Assembly: GCA_030063045.1 (NCBI GenBank)
Contig: JAQSEB010000145.1
Coordinates: 1,054,001 to 1,118,000, forward strand
Reading direction: 5' to 3'
DNA from: Pratylenchus scribneri
Lineage: Eukaryota; Nematoda; Chromadorea; Rhabditida; Pratylenchidae
DNA: 64,000 nucleotides
In this document: positions 3,723 to 37,700 of the stretch, one piece after another
How positions within the stretch are numbered: position 1 is the stretch's first letter
How the letters are laid out: each line of letters begins with the position of its first letter
Made by a program: the position numbers and the translations under genes
The notes under the pieces: model-generated
Databases searched by the model: none
What the model was told of the DNA's origin: nothing
What the model saw: only the letters and a program-made list of their open reading frames with translations

Positions 3723-3784
3723 TGTCACGAAAAATGTATAATTGAGTACAATCATCAATATAATAGGATTAATGGATGATAAGG

Positions 3785-4800
3785 AATTATTTTAATGAAA
3801 AAGAATGTACAAGGAGGATGAGAAATTAAAAATGGGAGAATGAGAAAAGATGAATGAGAGGATGAGAAGTGATGAATAGAAGGATGAATAGGAAGATGAG
3901 AAGAGATGAATGGGAAAATGAGAAGTGCTAAATGGAAGGATGAATAGGAATAAGAGAAGAGATGAATGGGAGAATTGAGTAGTGATGAATAGAAGGATGA
4001 AAAGGGATGAATAGGAAGAAGATTTAATAGGAAGATGAGAAGAGATGAATGCGAAGATGGGAAGTGATGAATAGAAGAATGAAAAGGATGAATAAGAAGA
4101 TGATAAGAGATGAATGAGTAGAAAGATGAATGGGAAGATGTATGAATAGGAAGATGAGAAGAGATGATTAGAAGGATGAAAATGGATGAATAGGAGGAAG
4201 GATTAATGGGAAGATTAGAAGAGATGAATGCGAAGATGGGAAGTGATGAATAGAAGAATGAAAAGGATGAATAAGAAGATGATAAGAGATGAATGAATAG
4301 AAAGATGAATGGGAAGATGTATGAATAGGAAGATGAGAAGAGATGATTAGAAGGATGAAAATGGATGAATAGGAAGAAGGATTAATGGGAAGATTAGAAG
4401 AGATGAATGCGAAGATGGGAAGTGATGAATAGAAGAATGAAAAGGATGAATAAGAAGATGATAAGAGATGAATGAATAGAAAGATGAATGGGAAGATGGA
4501 TGAATAGGAAGATGAGAAGAGATGATTAGAAGGATGAAAATGGATGAATAGGAAGAAGGATTAATGGGAAGATTAGAAGAGATGAATGGGTAGAAATAGA
4601 AAGATGAATGGGAAGATGGATGAATAGGAAGATAAGAGGTGAATGGGAGTAAGAAAAGGGATGAATGGGAAGATGGATGAATAGGAAGATGGATGAATAG
4701 GAAAATAAGAGGTGAATGGGAGTAAGAAAAGGGATGAATGGGAAGATGAGAAGAGACGAATGGGAGGATGAATAGGGATGAATGAGAGAAACGATAGAGT
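3785..4800. repeat. Polypurine GATGAA-type minisatellite with 179-bp higher-order unit
   Basis: About 1 kb is made almost entirely of purines and T on the plus strand, built from degenerate words such as GATGAATGGGAAGATGAGAAG. Within it a longer unit recurs at a 179-bp spacing: the word GCGAAGATGGGAAGTGATG occurs near 4051, 4230 and 4409. The long open frame on the opposite strand is a by-product of the repeat (Ser/His/Pro/Ile only) and is not called as a gene. Confidence 0.8.
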
Positions 4801-4828
4801 AAATCGAATATGAGAAGAATTTTGCGAG

Positions 4829-5945
4829 GGGAAAAATCGCTAACCCCCGAAATCCCGAAAAGACAAAACCGCGAAAGACGAAATCCCGAATAAAGGGAAG
4901 TGGACGAAACCCCGAAAAGACGAAATCCCGAAAAGAAGAAAATGGGACGAAATCCCGAAAACTTGAACTTGTGGATCAATTTTTTCGATCGATACCTCAA
5001 TCGATGCGTCTTGATTCCAGGATCATGAATATGCCATTTGTTTTTCAAAAAACTCAAAAATAAAAAAGTTATGGCCATTAAAGTTACCATAGGTGTAACA
5101 CAGCTTGACTAAAATGGCCATAACAGGGTTGCCAGATGGATTTTTACTTTGGGGGGCATTTTGGAAAAAAAAGGGGGCATTTGGGGGGCATTTTCAGTAA
5201 AAAAGGGGGCATTTTGGGGGGCATTTTTAAAAAGTGCCAAAAATGCAAAAATTTTTCCAATAATGGCCGCGCAGCGAAAAACTAGACCAAAAATTTGCCG
5301 CGCAGCGAAAAATTAGACCAAAAATTTGCCGCGCAGCGAAAAACTAGACCAAAAATTTGCCGCGCAGCGAAAAATTAGACCAAAAATTTGCCGCGCAGCG
5401 AAAAATTAGACCAAAAATTTGCCGCGCAGCGAAAAATTAGACCAAAAATTTGCCGCGAAGCGAAAAATTAGACCAAAAATTTGCCGCGCAGCGAAAAATT
5501 AGACCAAAAATTTGCCGCGCAGCGAAAAATTAGACCAAAAAATAATAAAAAAGGGAAAAAATGACAAAATTTTAAAAAGGGGGCATTTGGGGGGCAACTC
5601 GGCTCGGGGGGCACAAAAGGGGGCAAAATCTCAAAAAGGGGGCAAATGCCCCCCGTGGGGGGACATTCTGGCAACCCTGGGCCATAACTTTTTTATTTTT
5701 GAGTTTTTTGAAAAACAAATGGCATATTCATGATCCTGGAATCAAGACGCATCGATTGAGGTATCGATCGAAAAAATTGATCCACAAGTTCAAGTTTTCG
5801 GGATTTCGTCCCATTTTCTTCTTTTCGGGATTTCGTCTTTTCGGGGTTTCGTCCACTTCCCTTTATTCGGGATTTCGTCTTTCGGGGTTTCGTCTTTTCG
5901 GGGTTTCGTCTTTTCGGGATTTCGGGGTAGAACCGGGAAAAATAT
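4829..5945. repeat. Large palindrome (arms about 250 bp) interrupted by a hAT MITE
   Basis: The left arm (about 4829-5079) and right arm (resuming at 5680, ending about 5945) are inverted copies. Both contain GATCCTGGAATCAAGACGCA or its complement and end in tandem copies of a roughly 17-bp unit (TTTCGTCTTTTCGGG-like). Before the MITE at 5124-5679 inserted, the arms were separated only by a spacer of about 30 bp (ACCATAGGTGTAACACAGC region). This is a foldback-type element with minisatellite ends. The open frames across it are not coding. Confidence 0.75.
5124..5679 (-). mobile_element. hAT-type MITE, copy 2 (inverted, nested in palindrome)
   Basis: This is the inverted copy of the 2771-3326 element, the same length (556 bp), with the same CAGGGTTGCCAGA ends and the same 31-bp internal tandem units. 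It is flanked by a perfect 8-bp duplication, GGCCATAA (5116-5123 and 5680-5687), which lies inside the right arm of the surrounding palindrome. The duplication identifies the insertion event directly. It carries no transposase. Confidence 0.85.
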
Positions 5946-19905: not shown

Positions 19906-22464
19906 ATGGACTTCGACAATTTATTCGGCAAACACATCGAATCATTATCTAAATCTGAATCATCGCCTAAACCTGAATCAATGCCTAAACCGGAATTAAT
20001 AATATCTGAACCTGCTGAATTATTACCACTTGAATTGGAAAATGGCGAAGGAAAAGGTCAAATATATTTTTGTATATTTATAATTATTTTTACAAAAAAA
20101 AACGTAGCAATTTAAAATTTTAATTTTTTCAGTCGAAAACACAATTTACACTGAAGAACAACTGAAAAGGAAAGTTAAATGCACAACAAAAGAGGGCAAA
20201 TTTTTCGAGGTCAATTTTTGTAAAATTATTTATTTATTTATTAACCTTAAATTTCTTCAGAAATTTATTAATTTTTGCCTTAAAAATTATATATTTTCCA
20301 GGTACCCTGGTGTTTGATGATGCAATCCAAAATATTCTCGGATATGTGGACAAATTTGGGTCAAGAGGAAAAAGTGATGGCCACAACAAGAAAACAAGGA
20401 ATAAATGCCGGGAATAATGAGCATAATATAAATAATGATGAGCAAAATTCTATTCCGGAGCCATTTGCTTTCTATTTACCAACAATTAGCGAAAAATGTT
20501 TTCGACGAATTGTGGACTGGATGCGACATAGACATGGACAGCCCGAATTTGAATTGAAATTTGGGAAAGAAACAGGACAGGTCCTAAAACACTGAAATTA
20601 ATAAAATCGATATTTTTGGCCTTTTGGTTTTAAAAAATTAATACAAAAATATAAAAATAATTTTTGAAATATTTTTTACAGCAAATTTGGTTCAAACCGG
20701 ATAAATGGGAACAAAAATTTGGTTTTGACAATGGAATAATTAATATTGATTTTGAGGAACTTTATTTGGCAGCAAATTATCTTGATCTCCCTTCTTTATT
20801 CCATTATTGTGAGTTTTTATTTAAATTAAATTGTTAGAAATCTAGCCACTGAAAATACATTTTTTTGCGGTAAAAATAATTGAAAAACTAAGACAAAAAA
20901 TTATTCCAAATTTATTGATATTTTATTTTATATATAATAAATCTATTTTATTATAAAAATGCATATAAATTTTCTAATAATAAAATATGATTATATATTT
21001 CCAACAACAGGGCTACCAATAGAGAAGGGTATAATAAATTTCAGAGACCATCTAGAGAGGGCTACAAAAAGAGAGGGTGCTTCTAATAGAAAGAAGGCCA
21101 CTAATAGAAGTATTCTAAATATTTTTTTAAATTAAATTTTAATTCACAGGCGTTCAAGAATTTGCCCTTGCTATTATTCAGGCGAACAAATTGGAAAAAG
21201 TTCAAGAAATGTTATGCCTAGCAGATGTCACAAATTTTAAATAATAAAAAATTAAATTTTAATTCTTAAAATTAAAGGATTTGAGCCACGAGGAAAAAAC
21301 GGAAATCTACCAAGAATTTGGTATTCACCATTCTAAGGTATTCGAAATATCATATTTTTACATTTTATTTTTAAATATTTAGAAAATATCAAAACATTGG
21401 GAAAAGGAGACCAAAATTGTCGGAAATTTAACAAAACCCCTTCCTGCGGAATTGGTGCATCCAATTTTGGCCAAATTATCTCTGTCTGATCAACGTTGGT
21501 TGCTTCCATTGAATCGAAATGCTTACAAATATTTGGCCGATCGAGTCAGGAAAAATTGGTCAAAATGGATGGTTAGTATCAAAACCAGGATATTTTGTTT
21601 ATTAATATAGCTATTCAATTTAATATTATTAATGCTAATAATTAATAAAACTTATATGGTGCTAAAAATAATAATAATTTAAAAATTATTATTTTATTTT
21701 TCTATTAATTAATAAAATTTAATGCTAATAATAATAATTTAAAAATTATTATTTTATTTTTTTAATAATTAATAAAATTTAATGCTAATAATAATAATTT
21801 AAAAATTATTATTTTATTTTTTTAATAATTAATAAAATTTAATGCTAATAATATAAAATTATTTTGTAATGAATTAATAATTTTTTAATTATTTTTTTAG
21901 AATATGCTCAAAGTATATTTCATTGATGAAAATCCAAACTGGTATTATGGATATCCTACTAGTTCAAATATTCCAAATTTGGATGCCAGTCAGCCTTCCA
22001 TTGAATGGACTCTAACCAATTTGTTTGCGAACCAACCACTTCAAACCGAAATGTTATTGACCCAGAATTTTGTGGCTCAAAAATTAAATTCAATTGAGGC
22101 TGCTTATGATGAACTTACGCAAAAACATAATAAAAATAAACATTTGAAGGTATAAAGCCTTGAGAAATACCTTTTTTATTAATAGCTTTTAATTTCCTTT
22201 TTTTAGTCCATTTTATTACGTGCAATTGAACGCATGGACAAATTGTTCCGGATCGAAACAATATTTTTAGAACAATTGGTCAAAGTTTCAAAGCGATACT
22301 CGAATGCAAGCTCCATGAATTCCTATAAACGTGGCCTCTTTCATTTGGTGGAAGAACGGAATCAAATTTTGGAAGAATTGGAGACAAATGGGATGGAAGA
22401 TTTTAAGAAAAAATTGGCGGATTTGGAAGAAGACAATAATGAATATTGGGTCAATCGACTATAA
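19906..22464 (+). CDS. SKP1-like / F-box-like fusion protein, copy A (488 aa)
   Basis: Nine exons: 19906-20056, 20133-20209, 20302-20580, 20682-20808, 21150-21226, 21278-21337, 21383-21571, 21901-22149, 22207-22464, all GT-AG and in phase. Residues about 1-50 are a Ser/Pro/Glu-rich leader. Residues about 53-257 follow the SKP1 plan: a BTB/POZ-like start (VKCTTKEGKFFEVPWCLMMQ), then FRRIVDWMRHRHGQP (SKP1: W-x-x-x-H), LYLAANYLDLPSLFHYC (SKP1: AANYLDIKxLL), VQEFALAIIQANK, and DLSHEEKTEIYQEF (SKP1: DFTPEEE). Residues about 276-310 are F-box-like: PLPAELVHPILAKLSLSDQR (F-box: LPxELxxxIxxxLxxxD). The C-terminal 170 residues are unlike anything I know and end in a charged coiled coil. SKP1 proteins are usually about 160 aa and lack an F-box. 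It would act in SCF-type ubiquitin ligase assembly; that is inference. The start was chosen as the first in-frame ATG. Confidence 0.8.
21600..21860 (+). repeat. 60-bp tandem repeat in intron 7 of copy A
   Basis: Three near-identical 60-bp units built around ATTAATAAAATTTAATGCTA and AATTTAAAAATTATTATTTT, with a partial unit on each side. The paralogous intron of copy B lacks them, so the expansion postdates the gene duplication. Confidence 0.8.
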
Positions 22465-23210
22465 AATTGTGATTTAAACAAGAAAAGATGATCAGGGACT
22501 GAATATTACCATTTTTAATCGGATAATAAATTGGAAAATGTTCAATTGTTAAAGTAATTTGCTTTGATTAACAATAAATTTCATATATGTATTTTATTTC
22601 TCTATCATAAAAATTAAGTATGGTAATACTTTAAAATGATTTTGGCTGAATGCCAGAAAAACCCCCATTATATTTCAATAATCAAATAAATTAAGCCAGC
22701 AATTGTTACGCTTTTAAATTAAATTTTAGCCTGTTAATTTTTTATGTCTAAATTTTTAACCCTCATAATTATATCAAATTATACAAAAATTTTCTCATCA
22801 GCTAAATAAAATGTTTTTTTTAATATTTTTTATTTTAAATTAAGCTCTGCTGGTATCAAAATATTTTAAATAATTAATTAGGACACAAATGACAACTGAG
22901 TAACGAGTTGAAGATTTTCAAAGTCAATTTCCTGCTGTCTGCATTCAAATGCATGGCCACCGGTTTAATTTATATTTATATTTGTGCCTTTATATTTATA
23001 TATTCATTTAATTTTATATTATAATAAATAAAATGAATAAATTTAATACTTTAAAAATGTTCTTTTTTTCCTATTCTGATGCGAAATATTCGAAATATTA
23101 GCCCAAATTTATAATTTCATAAAAATTCAGCAATCATATCGCTCTTTTGAAATTTTAAATTATAATTTGCTTCAAGCAAATTCTGTCTTAATTGCTTTGA
23201 GCAAATTTCT

Positions 23211-23320
23211 TCCATTTTCGATTTTTCAATATGCATCATTCAAATTAAACAAATTCCCAGACATTGCAGCCCTCAATTAAATCATCATAGCAGATTCGTA
23301 TTATTGTGCACTGGGAAAGC
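23211..23320 (+). promoter_or_regulatory. Conserved upstream block of SKP1-F-box fusion copy B
   Basis: Counterpart of 19625-19735 (shared CAAATTCCCA and GCAGATTCGTATTAT). It lies about 240 bp upstream of the copy B ATG. No TATA element can be singled out in DNA this AT-rich. Confidence 0.5.
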
Positions 23321-23554
23321 TATGCTGAATCATAAATTTAAAATTATTTCATTCATTTGTCTATTCTTCAAAATTCAACAAATTTATTCCAGCAATAATT
23401 TTGTTAACTAGGAATAAAAAATTACAAGGGGAATTAGAAAATTTCCAATACGCATTCATTGTCCTTTTCTATAATTAAATTTTACATTCCTAATAATTCA
23501 TATTATAGAAGATAACAATTTTTAATTCTAATAATATATCAATTTCACGAAAAT

Positions 23555-25808
23555 ATGCCAAGAAACGGATCAAAGAAACAAAAAATTGTTAATAATGCTT
23601 CAAAGAAAGTGACTGCGAAAACACAAATTGTTGTGAAAAAGCAGCCAAAGAATGAGAGCAAAAAAGCGCGAAATATTCGTATTTCAGAGGAAAATAAAAA
23701 TGCCACCACCGAATCATTGCCACTTGAGTTGGAAAATGGCGAAGGGAAAGGTCAATTTTTAAAAAGAATTTTCTATCAAATTAACAATTAATTTTCAGCT
23801 GAGAACACCAAATTTACAGAGGTCCAATTGAAGCGAAAAGTTCAATGCCGAACAATGGAGGGAAAGATCATTGAGGTCAAAATTTAAATTTTAATATAAA
23901 TTTGAGTTAATTTTTATTAAAAATTAGAGTTAATTTTAATTAAATTTGAATTAATTTTAATAAAGATTTGAATTTCTTCAGGTTCCATGGTGTTTGATGA
24001 CGCAGTCTCAGGTATTCGCCGAAATGTGGACAAATTTGGGGCAGGAAAATGAAGTTGCTGTAAAAGAGAAAAATGAAGTGGCCAAAGAGGAATCCAATCA
24101 GCCATTCGTATTCAATTTGCCAACAATTGGCAAAAAATGTTTCCGTCGAATTGTGGATTGGATGCGTCATAGACACGGACAACCCGTATTTGAGCTTAAA
24201 TTTGGGAAAGAAACTGGACAGGTTCGAATAATTTAATAAATATTTCTAAATTATTTTTATAGCAAATTTGGTTCCAACCGGATGAATGGGAATGCAATTT
24301 TGGTTTTGGCGGCGGAAAGAATAAAATGAATTTGGAGGCGGTCAAAGATTTGTATTTGGCGGCTAATTTTCTTGACCTTCCTTCACTGTTCCATTATTGT
24401 AAGTTATACCAATTAAAATTGAGATTAAAATAATTTTAAAAAGCATAAGAATTAATTTATTTGGTACTAAAATGGTTTAATTGGTTTAAAATGAGTCTAA
24501 GATTTTTTGATATTAATTTTAATTTGTTCTAAATGACAATATTTTTTAATATTTATTAAATAAAAACTATGGCATTCAAGTTCAACTTCAACCTGAATGA
24601 AAATATAGTTCATTTTTGTGGATATAAAACTACTATAAAAATTTGCAATAAAATTTGTTGAAATATTAATTATTAAATTTGCAGGTGTACAAGAATTTGC
24701 TTTTGCTGTTATTCAAGCGAACAAATTGGAACAAGTACGCGAAATTTTATGCCTTATTGATGTAAGAATTTTTAAATAATATAAAAAAATAAATTCATAT
24801 TTGAGGATTTGACTGATGAGGAAGAAAAAAAGGCCATTTACCAAGAATTTGATATTCCACTGCCAAAAGTAATTTGAATGAAAATAATATTCTGTATTTT
24901 ATTAATATTTAGGAGAAAATGTTGAATTATTGGGAGCAAAAGCAAACCAAAATTGTTGGAAAAATACAAAATCCTCTTCCTCTGGAATTGATGCATCCAA
25001 TTTTTGCCAAATTATCTCTGTCTGATCAACGCTGGTTGTTGCCATTGAATCGAGATGCTTACAATTATTTGGCCGATCGAGTCCGAAAAAATTGGCCAAA
25101 ATGGATGGTTAGAATCAATAATAATATATTAATAATTCAAGAAAAAATACATTTTCCTAGGATACACTTAATGTATTTATCATTGATGTAAGTCCTTCCT
25201 GGTATTATGGATATCATGGAGTTCATATCCCATCTTTACAACATGGTCAGCCTACTTTTCAATGGACAGCGTCGCATTTTTTGGCCCATCGATCACTTCA
25301 AACGGAAATGTTAATCACACAGAATTTCATTGAACATCAAATTAATTCGATTAATGCGGAGCCAATTGCAACTGAAGACCAGATGGAAAAACTTTGGAGA
25401 GAAAATTGCAAAAAGAAACAAATAACTGTAAGGAATTAAAAAATTTTTTCTTTTATAATTTTCGGCTTATTTTTCTCATTTATTCTATAATAATTTAATT
25501 TAAAAATATAAATTTTAATTTGATTTTTTAAATTTAAAATTTTTTAGTCCATCTTATCTCGGGCCATTCAACACATGGACGCATTGCTAGGCAGAGGTGA
25601 AAGAACATTGCAACAAAAAATGGAAGCAATTTCAAAACTTTATGAGGATATGACTCCAATGAATTCCTATAAGAGAGGATTAATTCATTTGGTGGAGCAA
25701 CGACGACAAATTTTGGAAGAATTGGAGGCAAATGAAATGAAAGAATTGAAGAAAAAATTGGCCGATTCGGAAAAAGGCATCAATGAATATTGGGTTCAGC
25801 GTCTATAA
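23555..25808 (+). CDS. SKP1-like / F-box-like fusion protein, copy B (503 aa)
   Basis: Nine exons with the same order and phases as copy A: 23555-23750, 23799-23875, 23982-24221, 24263-24398, 24685-24761, 24806-24868, 24913-25107, 25161-25427, 25548-25808. The N-terminus differs completely from copy A: it is Lys-rich and NLS-like (SKKQKIVNNASKK...KKARN) until the shared LPLELENGEGK. SKP1-like landmarks: VQCRTMEGKIIEVPWCLMTQ, RRIVDWMRHRHGQP, DLYLAANFLDLPSLFHYC and DLTDEEEKKAIYQEF. The F-box-like segment begins at about residue 284: PLPLELMHPIFAKLSLSDQR, then LPLNRDAYNYLADRVRKNW. The C-terminal part contains SWYYGY, LQTEML(I/L)TQNF and a terminal coiled coil (RRQILEELEANEMKELKKKL). It sits about 1.1 kb downstream of copy A on the same strand with its own upstream region, so it is a tandem duplicate rather than an operon partner. 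Confidence 0.8.
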
Positions 25809-26218: not shown

Positions 26219-26437
26219 ATGTTATCAAAAGAAATTTCTCGATGACCATCAAAAGCAACGAGGATTTTCTCAACACCAACAACAAATTCAACAATCATTT
26301 TTTCAACAAAATCCATTACAACAAGATCAGACATTCCAAAAAAAAGGCAAAATATTCCAGTTTCGGAAGAGAATAAGGCCATCGAATCATTTCCGCTCGA
26401 GCTGGGAAATGGCAAAGGGAAAGCTCAATTTAATTGA
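26219..26437 (+). pseudogene. Truncated third copy: exon 1 only of the SKP1-F-box fusion family
   Basis: The 3' half matches copy B exon 1: copy B reads ISEENKN...ESLPLELENGEGK and this fragment reads VSEENKAIESFPLELGNGKGK. The reading frame is broken by TGA at 26243, the splice donor GGTCAAT has become GCTCAAT, and no further exons follow. It lies about 410 bp after copy B ends. It shows that the cluster once had, or attempted, a third member. Confidence 0.7.
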
Positions 26438-34700: not shown

Positions 34701-37700
34701 TTGAGGCCTTTCAGCTCAAATTCCGTCTCATTCCCGGAATAGACAATTTGGGGTTGTTGTCGATCCACCCGTTGCAATTCGAACATCATTGCCGCATTTT
34801 GGCCACCACTGCTGGATGAGGCCGCTGCAGTGCCACCACCGCTTTGACCATCCAATGAATTGGCTTTCTTTGGACTGCCACTACCGCCGGGAGTGATCTA
34901 AGAAGATGGGAAAAATAAAAAATTGAATAAAAATTCTTAAAAATTAATAAAAAAAAATTGATTGAAGTTCAAAAAATTTTAAAAATTGAATAAATGAAAA
35001 AATTTAATAAAAATTCATAAAAAAATTTTTAAAAAGTGAATAAAATTTCATAAAAAATTTCAAAAAAAATTTAAAAAATCACAAAAAAATTTTAAAAATT
35101 TTATCAAAAAAAAATTTTTTTAAAAATGAATAAAAATTTAATAAAAATTTTTAAAGAGTTGAGTAAAATTTCAAAAAAAATTTTTCAAAATTTCAATAAA
35201 AATTCATAAAAAATTTTAAAAAATTGAATAAAAATTCTTAAAAAATTAAAAAAATTTCATAAAAATTTAAAATTTTTATAGAGAATCGTTCTAGAAAAAA
35301 TCTTAAAAAATTATCAATAAAATACTCCAATAAAATATTTAAAAAATATGTAAATATGCCCAAATGATACTAACCAATCGCCATGTAACTTTTGCACTTT
35401 CACTGGTCAACAATGTGAATTTCGGCGTTGAACATCCATTAATTTGAGGCTTTTGCTGTTGTTGTGGTTTTTCTTCCTTTGCCTTTGTTTTGGCACTTTC
35501 CACCACTGAAGAGGGTTCATCTGATTCCGTGGATTGTTGTTGAATTTGTTGCTGTGCGGTTTGAGGTGCCTTTGTTTGGCCACCTTTTTTGGATTGACTA
35601 CCGGATGGGGCATTGCTGGTTATTGAACGTTTTTGGCCACCGAATTTATGCTGCTGTTGCCCACCGGTGGCTGGCGATCCCCGATGATGTTGGGGCTCAT
35701 GTTGAGGCTCGTCATCAAATGCTGCACTGAGTTGGGTCTTAAAAATATAAAATATATTTAATTGAGTTAAAATTTTGATAATTTTTTTTTCAGTACAAAT
35801 ATTATGAATTTCGAAAAATTATTTATTATTAAGCCTATTATTTTTCTATAGTATTTTTGAATTATATAATTTTGTATTTTTAAGCGTAAATTTTTTCTAA
35901 AATAATTTTATATTGGAAAAATTATTAATTTTTTTAGCCAAAAATTTTCTATAATATGTTTTGAATTACAAAAATTATTTTATTATTAAAGCCTAAAATT
36001 TTCCTATACTGCTATTTTGAATTATCAAAAATTATTTCTTTTTAGCCTAAAATTTATTTTTGAGCGTAAAATTTTTCTAAAGTATATTTTATATTATTAA
36101 AAATTATTTTATTTTTAGGCCTAAAAATTATTGGATAAGAATTATTAAAGGAAAATTAAAATAAAATTTTGTTTAAGGTAAAATTAAAATAAAATTTAAT
36201 TTTTATATAAATAAAAAAAATTTCAATGACCTATAAGAAATTTTTACCAAAATAATTAATTTTTTCTGCAAAAATTCCCCTTCCATTACCGTACCTTTTC
36301 ACTGTGCCGATCATTCTGTTGTTGCTCATATCGATGATCCTTGTAATGCGAAGAAGCCGGCTCATTTCCACCATGGCTCCGGGTTCGGACGGTCACAAAA
36401 TCGGAATGCAATGTGTCACCATTTGCAGTGTTCACCACCAAACGGAATCGATAGTCCCTGTTGGGTTGAAGGCCATTGATGATGGCAAAAGTGCCGGAAG
36501 CTGCGTAGCATTCCATCGGGATTGGAGCAAAATGTGGAGTGCCTCGAACAGAGAAATCCGACATTTCAAGCTTAATAAGGGGAAAAATATTATTACTAAA
36601 TATTATTAAAATTATTAGAAATAATTCAACTAAAAATTATTTTACAGAAATAAAAAATTGATTAAAAAATAATTCATTTAAGAAATTATTTTTAATAATA
36701 AATAGGGACCGGATTTATATTGACTTTTGACTATAAATCTTTAAAATTGACAAAAATATTGAAGAAATATTGATAAAAATTTTGAATTATGTTTTTCTAA
36801 AAATTTCATAGGAATTTTTTTCCGTTACTCAAAAGTCTAAACCATAAATTATTTTAAATTGAAAGGAATGTTATTTATTTAAAAAATTTTAAAATTAATT
36901 TTCACAAATTTTTCAAAAAATTGGCAAAATATTTTAAAAATTTGTGAAAAATTTTTCAAAAATTTCAAATTTTTTTTCAAAAAATATAAAATTTAGTAAA
37001 ATTCTCTAAAAATCTTCAAAATATTGATGAAAATTCCCAAAATAAACAAAAATGTCAAATAAATAATGACGGCCAAAAAATGGCAAAATATTGATGAATA
37101 TTGGCATAAAAGTCCATGCAAATCAACAAAAAAAATGATAAAAAAAATGTTTTTTCGTTTGTTTAAAGTTAAGTTTGTAAACAAATTATTGAAATCAATA
37201 TAAATACGGTTCCTAATAATAAAAATTAATTAAATATAATAAAATTGATAAAAAAAATTCACCGTAACATTCAAATATTCATGCCCAGGTTGCACATCAT
37301 TCCAAGACATTTTTATTGTTTTGGCCATAACGGAATGCACGGTTGGAGGCAATGGTTTTGGAATCATTGTCTGAGGCGTTGGATGTTGTTGCTGGACTGA
37401 GGAACATGGTGAACTGGCCAATGAAGCTTGTTGGCCTATAATAAATTGGTAAATAAAAAATAGGATTATCTTATGTTTTTAATTATTTTCAAATTCAAAA
37501 TAAATTAAATAAAATTAAAATATTTCAATGGATAATTATTGGGGTAATCGATAAATTTTTTTATCAAAAATTTGGATTTTGAAAAATAGGTAATATTTTT
37601 TCAAAAATTTCTGAAATGGAATTTTTTGACTCAGTTTATTTTTGATAAATTGTATAAAAGTTTAATTTATTTTTTCTTTAATTTTAACGAATACATTTTT

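Follow-up and report, generated by a model that had tools for sequence, protein, structure and literature searches.

Does the root-lesion-nematode gene family represented by two genes of Pratylenchus scribneri join an SKP1-like and an F-box-like part in one polypeptide, and if so, what might such a protein do? As a rule, SKP1 and its F-box partners are distinct polypeptides; CUL3 receptors, in contrast, are single chains. The two genes, A and B, stand in tandem on the plus strand of the window, by which we mean the whole stretch of 64,000 nucleotides that was analyzed (positions 1,054,001 to 1,118,000 of contig JAQSEB010000145.1). An earlier note on this DNA had claimed that both encode such a fusion, and this is supported by the open frames and conserved intron phases of A and B, by 15 open models among 16 family loci, and by a database protein (P0001) that runs across the join in a relative.

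Genes A and B, their relatives and one message

Gene A (window positions 19906-22464, plus strand; 488 amino acids) has nine exons at 19906-20056, 20133-20209, 20302-20580, 20682-20808, 21150-21226, 21278-21337, 21383-21571, 21901-22149, and 22207-22464, and gene B (23555-25808, plus strand; 503 amino acids) has nine at 23555-23750, 23799-23875, 23982-24221, 24263-24398, 24685-24761, 24806-24868, 24913-25107, 25161-25427, and 25548-25808. The positions are those of the earlier note, and in both splice models the introns have GT-AG borders and the joined frame is single, open, and uninterrupted by a stop. Intron phases are identical between the two genes, the intron between exons 6 and 7 being of phase 0 in each. 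A protein-to-genome alignment with protein B as query reproduced the borders of gene A from within exon 1 onward. The two proteins share 61.6% identity over 463 aligned residues, and contig C37 carries a copy with 90.9% identity to gene B. On the 3' side of gene B, at 26327-26430 (plus strand), lies a relic of a third family copy, in which only an exon-1-like stretch ending FPLELGNGKGKAQ is recognizable.

Each predicted protein begins with a divergent SKP1 domain, followed by a linker of 24-26 residues and a block reading PLPxELxHPIxAKLSLSDQRWLL; after these come a variable region and a tail predicted to be helical. The SKP1-like domain, a POZ half followed by dimerization helices, is encoded by exons 2-6 (20133-21337 in A and 23799-24868 in B, plus strand) and was placed by sub-cut-off Pfam matches and a family profile. 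Exon 7 (21383-21571 and 24913-25107) carries the end of the linker and the F-box-like block, which begins with PLPxEL at residue 276 of A and 284 of B, as previously stated; it was assigned in both genes by profile-profile comparison with F-box exons from the assembly (matching over the first 18 columns in A), joined in B by a single-sequence score. The linker, once put at about 20 residues, is indeed short but slightly longer than that, with 24 (A) and 26 (B) residues between the SKP1 end (..EF) and the block. Exon 8 (21901-22149 and 25161-25427) encodes the variable region, in gene A a candidate substrate-binding part, as judged by comparing ratios of nonsynonymous to synonymous substitution rates (dN/dS), and exon 9 (22207-22464 and 25548-25808) encodes a tail of predicted long helices, based on an AlphaFold model of P0001.

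With the whole assembly as search space (227,248,964 bases in 276 contigs), protein B gave 99 exon matches. The F-box-like exon occurs at 16 loci on eight contigs (a hand count from the match list), with SKP1-like exons on the same strand. Family genes were rebuilt from the excised loci with a protein-to-genome aligner that forbids stop codons, and 15 of the 16 loci, A and B included, yielded open models with the SKP1 and F-box-like parts in one frame; the model ends are uncertain in part, and the model on C205 is incomplete at its end. The sixteenth locus (L033) is disrupted in exon 7 and was dropped. From the end of the SKP1 domain to the block, the linker measures 20-37 residues in 13 models and 71-72 in two divergent ones. 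Second copies at L031, L032, L035, and L040 are, like L033, broken, shortened, or covered only in part (contigs C37, C175, and C43), and at L031 and L035 an A-like copy next to an open B-like gene is without its middle exons in the models. Passages of the assembly paper describe the draft as 227.24 Mb in 276 contigs and note diploidy and 41.4% duplicated benchmarking universal single-copy orthologs (PMC10138993).

P0001 was the only fused relative returned from 5.8 billion proteins by a word-based search, which distant relatives can escape. It is a 365-residue open frame on an intron-free 1213-bp record with the source tag “lgn”, which we guess to denote assembled sequencing reads, and it is 98.5% identical over 337 amino acids to locus L038 after removal of six GT-AG introns of 46-1113 nt. 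Because the record is intron-free where L038 has six introns, it looks like spliced RNA; and because P0001 spans the SKP1 C-terminal half, the F-box-like block, and the tail in one frame, all three parts lie on one message in that family member, for which a fusion on a single mRNA is thus supported.

The SKP1-like domain and the F-box-like block

Across the family, the Pfam Skp1 model matched all eight members scanned (best expect value, E, 6.1e-7) and Skp1_POZ seven of the eight (best 4.3e-5) at E <= 10. Taken alone, gene A reached E 0.0018 with Skp1_POZ (18.9 bits vs. a cut-off of 21.9) and 0.082 with Skp1, both sub-cut-off, and gene B reached 0.005 with Skp1 (17.1 bits vs. a curated cut-off of 22.3). 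The SKP1-type fold anticipated for these proteins (PF03931/PF01466) is therefore matched at family level, with A and B singly under the curated cut-offs. A profile of eight members matched Skp1 chains of the PDB (yeast Skp1) at E 4.8e-9, and BLAST matches to canonical SKP1 were obtained for all 15 models and P0001 (E 8.7e-11 to 1.3e-4). We regard SKP1 homology as firm at the level of profiles. In the AANxLD segment, eight family rows show no change at the second A, N, L, and D and a single change at the first A, while the fourth position is Y or F; the five fixed residues, which in SKP1 contact CUL1, are common to canonical SKP1 and the four family rows aligned with it. Like canonical SKP1 (the nematode skr genes), the family has the POZ half, the dimerization helices, and this segment. 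Unlike it, the family does not keep the helix 8 tail, and its members are about 20-26% identical to the canonical SKP1 of this genome where the alignment exceeds 100 residues; A and B carry about 240 extra residues after the SKP1 part.

To place the block, 20 exons from this assembly with Pfam F-box matches above the cut-off served as reference, 19 of them in the main profile. Compared with this profile by hhalign, the exon 7 profile aligned over 18 columns with a score of 24.5 (E 3.6e-5, probability 71.5%), which none of 300 column shuffles reached (maximum 17.6). In global mode the score was 16.1, again above all 300 shuffles (maximum 13.6), and an earlier alignment with all 20 exons scored 23.7 (0/300). 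Sliding windows of 60 residues scored <= 11 elsewhere in the family and exceeded 11 only where the block was included. As single sequences, 13 of 16 rows scored 21.1-23.9 and three divergent rows 17.3. These values can be set beside 887 decoys (241 frames of the window, 251 segments cut from returned proteins, 275 from elsewhere in the family, and 120 reversed family segments), of which five scored at least 17.4, one at least 20.9 (22.9), and none at least 23.1. Gene B scored 23.09, with 0 of the 887 decoys at 23.1 or more, and the score of gene A was matched or beaten by a single decoy segment.

On these comparisons, the first helix of an F-box is likely to be present in the block, the remainder being unrecognizable or rebuilt. 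F-box homology is accordingly supported in part, for the first 18-19 positions. The F-box-like motif that the earlier note expected from a profile search was recovered in this half by profile-profile comparison and was not found by HMMER with Pfam in full-length proteins. Like F-box proteins, the block has an LPxEL..I..L...D pattern; unlike them, it has an unrecognizable second half and its SKP1 partner in the same chain.

An AlphaFold model was built for P0001 from an alignment of 27 rows. By block-wise predicted local distance difference test (pLDDT), the fold proposed for these proteins is modeled in its SKP1 helices (54-87) and poorly in the F-box-like block (42-78); the tail, with helices at 226-308, 312-333, and 336-364, mostly lies at 74-93. 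Skp1 chains head the Foldseek list, though not significantly (E 0.13), and SPOP rows are weak (E 4.5 and up), from which we draw no sign of BTB membership.

Family history and selection

Thirteen more loci match the SKP1 part only. Twelve of these were fetched (L043-L054), and F-box-like motif strings occur in none of the 12, as searched in match-strand frames over a few kilobases around each. They are related to A and B in sequence and their exon layout resembles that of the fused genes (e.g., 222/118/74 nt in L044 and L050), but they differ in lacking these strings. When 23 SKP1 domains were placed on a tree (3 canonical, 15 from fused genes, and 5 from the 12 fetched SKP1-only loci), all fused genes fell on one side of a branch with support of 100/100, apart from canonical SKP1, and the five SKP1-only rows cluster with the fused genes, away from canonical SKP1. 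The simplest reading of these sequences is that one fusion event occurred within a divergent SKP1-like lineage and was followed by multiplication. L043-L054 appear as a separate expansion of divergent SKP1-like genes beside canonical SKP1. Across the assembly, the Skp1 model PF01466 scores 103-106 bits at six loci and 87-95 at six more, comprising at least two sequence types. Among the 120 returned proteins compared, the canonical SKP1 of the assembly is closest to a Meloidogyne protein (86.7% identity), with Ditylenchus the next genus (84.1%), as would suit a tylenchid.

dN/dS was calculated over ten family pairs, which share ancestry and are non-independent. Over residues 66-503 it is 0.15-0.30 in nine of the ten pairs where defined, and over the F-box-like block it is 0.08-0.25 in nine of ten. 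In seven of eight comparable pairs the ratio of the block lies below that of exon 8 (0.23-0.57), exon 8 exceeds exon 9 in six of eight, and both exons stay under 0.6 wherever the ratio is defined (eight and nine of the ten pairs, respectively). These ratios indicate purifying selection on the family and, in most pairs, strong constraint on the F-box-like exon. The exception is the A-B pair, with a dN/dS of 0.58 for the block and a synonymous divergence (dS) of 0.18 there vs. 0.85 for residues 66-503. Exon 7 is also the most similar exon between A and B at the DNA level (86.2% identity vs. 60-80.5% in the other eight), which together with the low dS hints at gene conversion in this exon between the two genes.

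Elsewhere in the window, an open frame at 36286-36636 (minus strand) has a sub-threshold fibronectin type III match (E 0.005). Long minus-strand frames rich in Q and G lie nearby, at 35-45 kb, and this may be an FNDC3-like gene. At 3755-5108 (minus strand), overlapping repetitive frames rich in S, F, and H have the look of a tandem repeat.

Candidate functions of the fused proteins

The contrast between separate SKP1 and F-box chains and single-chain CUL3 receptors leads us to favor, tentatively, the reading that A and B are single-chain substrate receptors of a CUL1-type ubiquitin ligase, with the SKP1-like and F-box-like parts in one chain. We predict that the SKP1-like fold would dock on the cullin via its kept AAN-[YF]-LD helix, that the F-box-like helix would fold back onto the SKP1 C-terminal helices across the linker of 20-37 residues (about 72 in divergent members), and that the variable exon 8 region and the helical tail would hold a target or partner. 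One protein would then do for CUL1 what BTB-BACK receptors do for CUL3. The likeness to those receptors, which carry MATH or Kelch domains, is a works-like analogy of adaptor and receptor in one chain; A and B differ from them in having an SKP1/CUL1-type adaptor and an F-box-like link.

A series of observations counts against such a receptor. No transcript of A or B themselves was found, and P0001, which is neither of them, starts inside exon 4, leaving the POZ half outside. Curated Pfam F-box models matched none of eight full-length members at E 10 and neither exon 7 of A nor that of B at E 0.1; one of ten isolated segments was matched (E 0.062), and two unrelated families matched more members. 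The block profile returned no F-box chain from the PDB at E 10. The second half of the block misfits in the global alignment, which has a 12-residue gap and a probability of 3.4%, and the full-length family profile aligned the same 19 columns with a score of 24.7 but an E of 0.002 and a probability of 14%. True F-box exons left out singly (n = 10) scored 33-62 vs. 24.5 for exon 7, and the 17.3 of the divergent members falls within the range of 5 of the 887 decoys. The end of SKP1 helix 8 (the ..NAWCED or NxWCE tail), which helps to hold F-boxes in known complexes, is not kept, the pattern being lost at ..EF in five family rows. In the P0001 model the first helix of the block has a pLDDT of about 42-44 and the next is a single long helix in place of the two short ones of an F-box, and at E 0.001 the model had no PDB match, including over the F-box-like stretch.

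Several of these points recur in an alternative that we consider rather unlikely, though it has to be taken seriously: A and B may be SKP1-like adaptors with a lineage-specific helical tail, in which the block arose by convergence as a short helix motif with no docking role towards SKP1, and the SKP1-like domain pairs with other F-box proteins or partners. Such convergence would fit the failure of curated F-box models on full-length members and of F-box chains in the PDB, a match that spans just 18-19 columns and is weak when the full-length profile is used, and poor structure in that stretch. It fits less well with a match that falls on a highly invariant block and beats 300 of 300 shuffles, and with the position of the block immediately behind SKP1, the domain with which an F-box naturally pairs. 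Less probable still, the proteins may be decoys that bind CUL1 or F-box proteins without a working receptor surface, compete with canonical SKP1, and so damp SCF (SKP1-cullin-F-box) ligases, as could be imagined from the half-matching F-box, the helix 8 tail that is not kept, and the canonical SKP1 genes also present in the genome. A pure decoy would not need the constraint seen on exons 8 and 9, where dN/dS is under 0.6 in the eight and nine of ten pairs that define it, and we deem this improbable.

Delivery of the proteins into plant cells, where they would act on the SCF ligases of the host as has been proposed for SKP1 in Meloidogyne secretions, seems very improbable. One paper reports SKP1 in the secretome of M. 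incognita and cites its presence in a Heterodera gland, but the passages on it call the protein an SKP1 homolog and describe no fusion (PMC2568823), and A and B have predicted N-termini that, judged by eye, are charged and lack a signal peptide. Least credible of all is that gene prediction merged two adjacent genes, SKP1-like then F-box-like, for although A and B themselves are without RNA evidence, each reads as a single open frame in which a phase-0 intron separates exons 6 and 7, 15 models are open, and P0001 crosses the join in a relative.

No SKP1-F-box fusion is described in the titles and abstract openings among the matches listed from the open-access literature (subscription papers and preprints lie outside it), in keeping with the earlier note, which knew of no described protein with this architecture. 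In the parts of these sources drawn on, F-box fusions with transposon domains are described in nematodes and SKP1 is named three times (PMC12062965), a general sentence concerns ubiquitin ligase (E3) domains (PMC5678704), and the main text of the P. scribneri assembly paper has neither SKP1 nor F-box (PMC10138993). A plant protein of 363 amino acids (P0007, “SKP1-like protein 1B” of Tanacetum cinerariifolium) resembles the fusion in having Pfam F-box and Skp1 matches in one record; unlike A and B, it has them in reverse order, the F-box preceding the SKP1 C-terminal repeats, and being a single record it may be a merged gene model.

SCF ligases use an exchangeable SKP1 for which many F-box proteins compete. 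It is conceivable, and we hold this with greater reserve than the receptor role itself, that a root-lesion nematode lineage fused SKP1 to its F-box receptor once and multiplied the product to about 16 loci, creating a natural single-chain SCF arm with a CUL3-like one-protein design, in which every copy would be tied to a target surface of its own and would not draw on the common supply of SKP1. If this is true, a family carrying its own SKP1 would escape both the competition for SKP1 and SKP1-F-box exchange, and it would let the difference in build between CUL1 and CUL3 receptors be probed in a natural setting, besides offering a ready tethered scaffold for structural work. In a crop pest, it stands as a ubiquitin gene family specific to its lineage, one that routine annotation can miss because both halves of A and B stay under their Pfam cut-offs.

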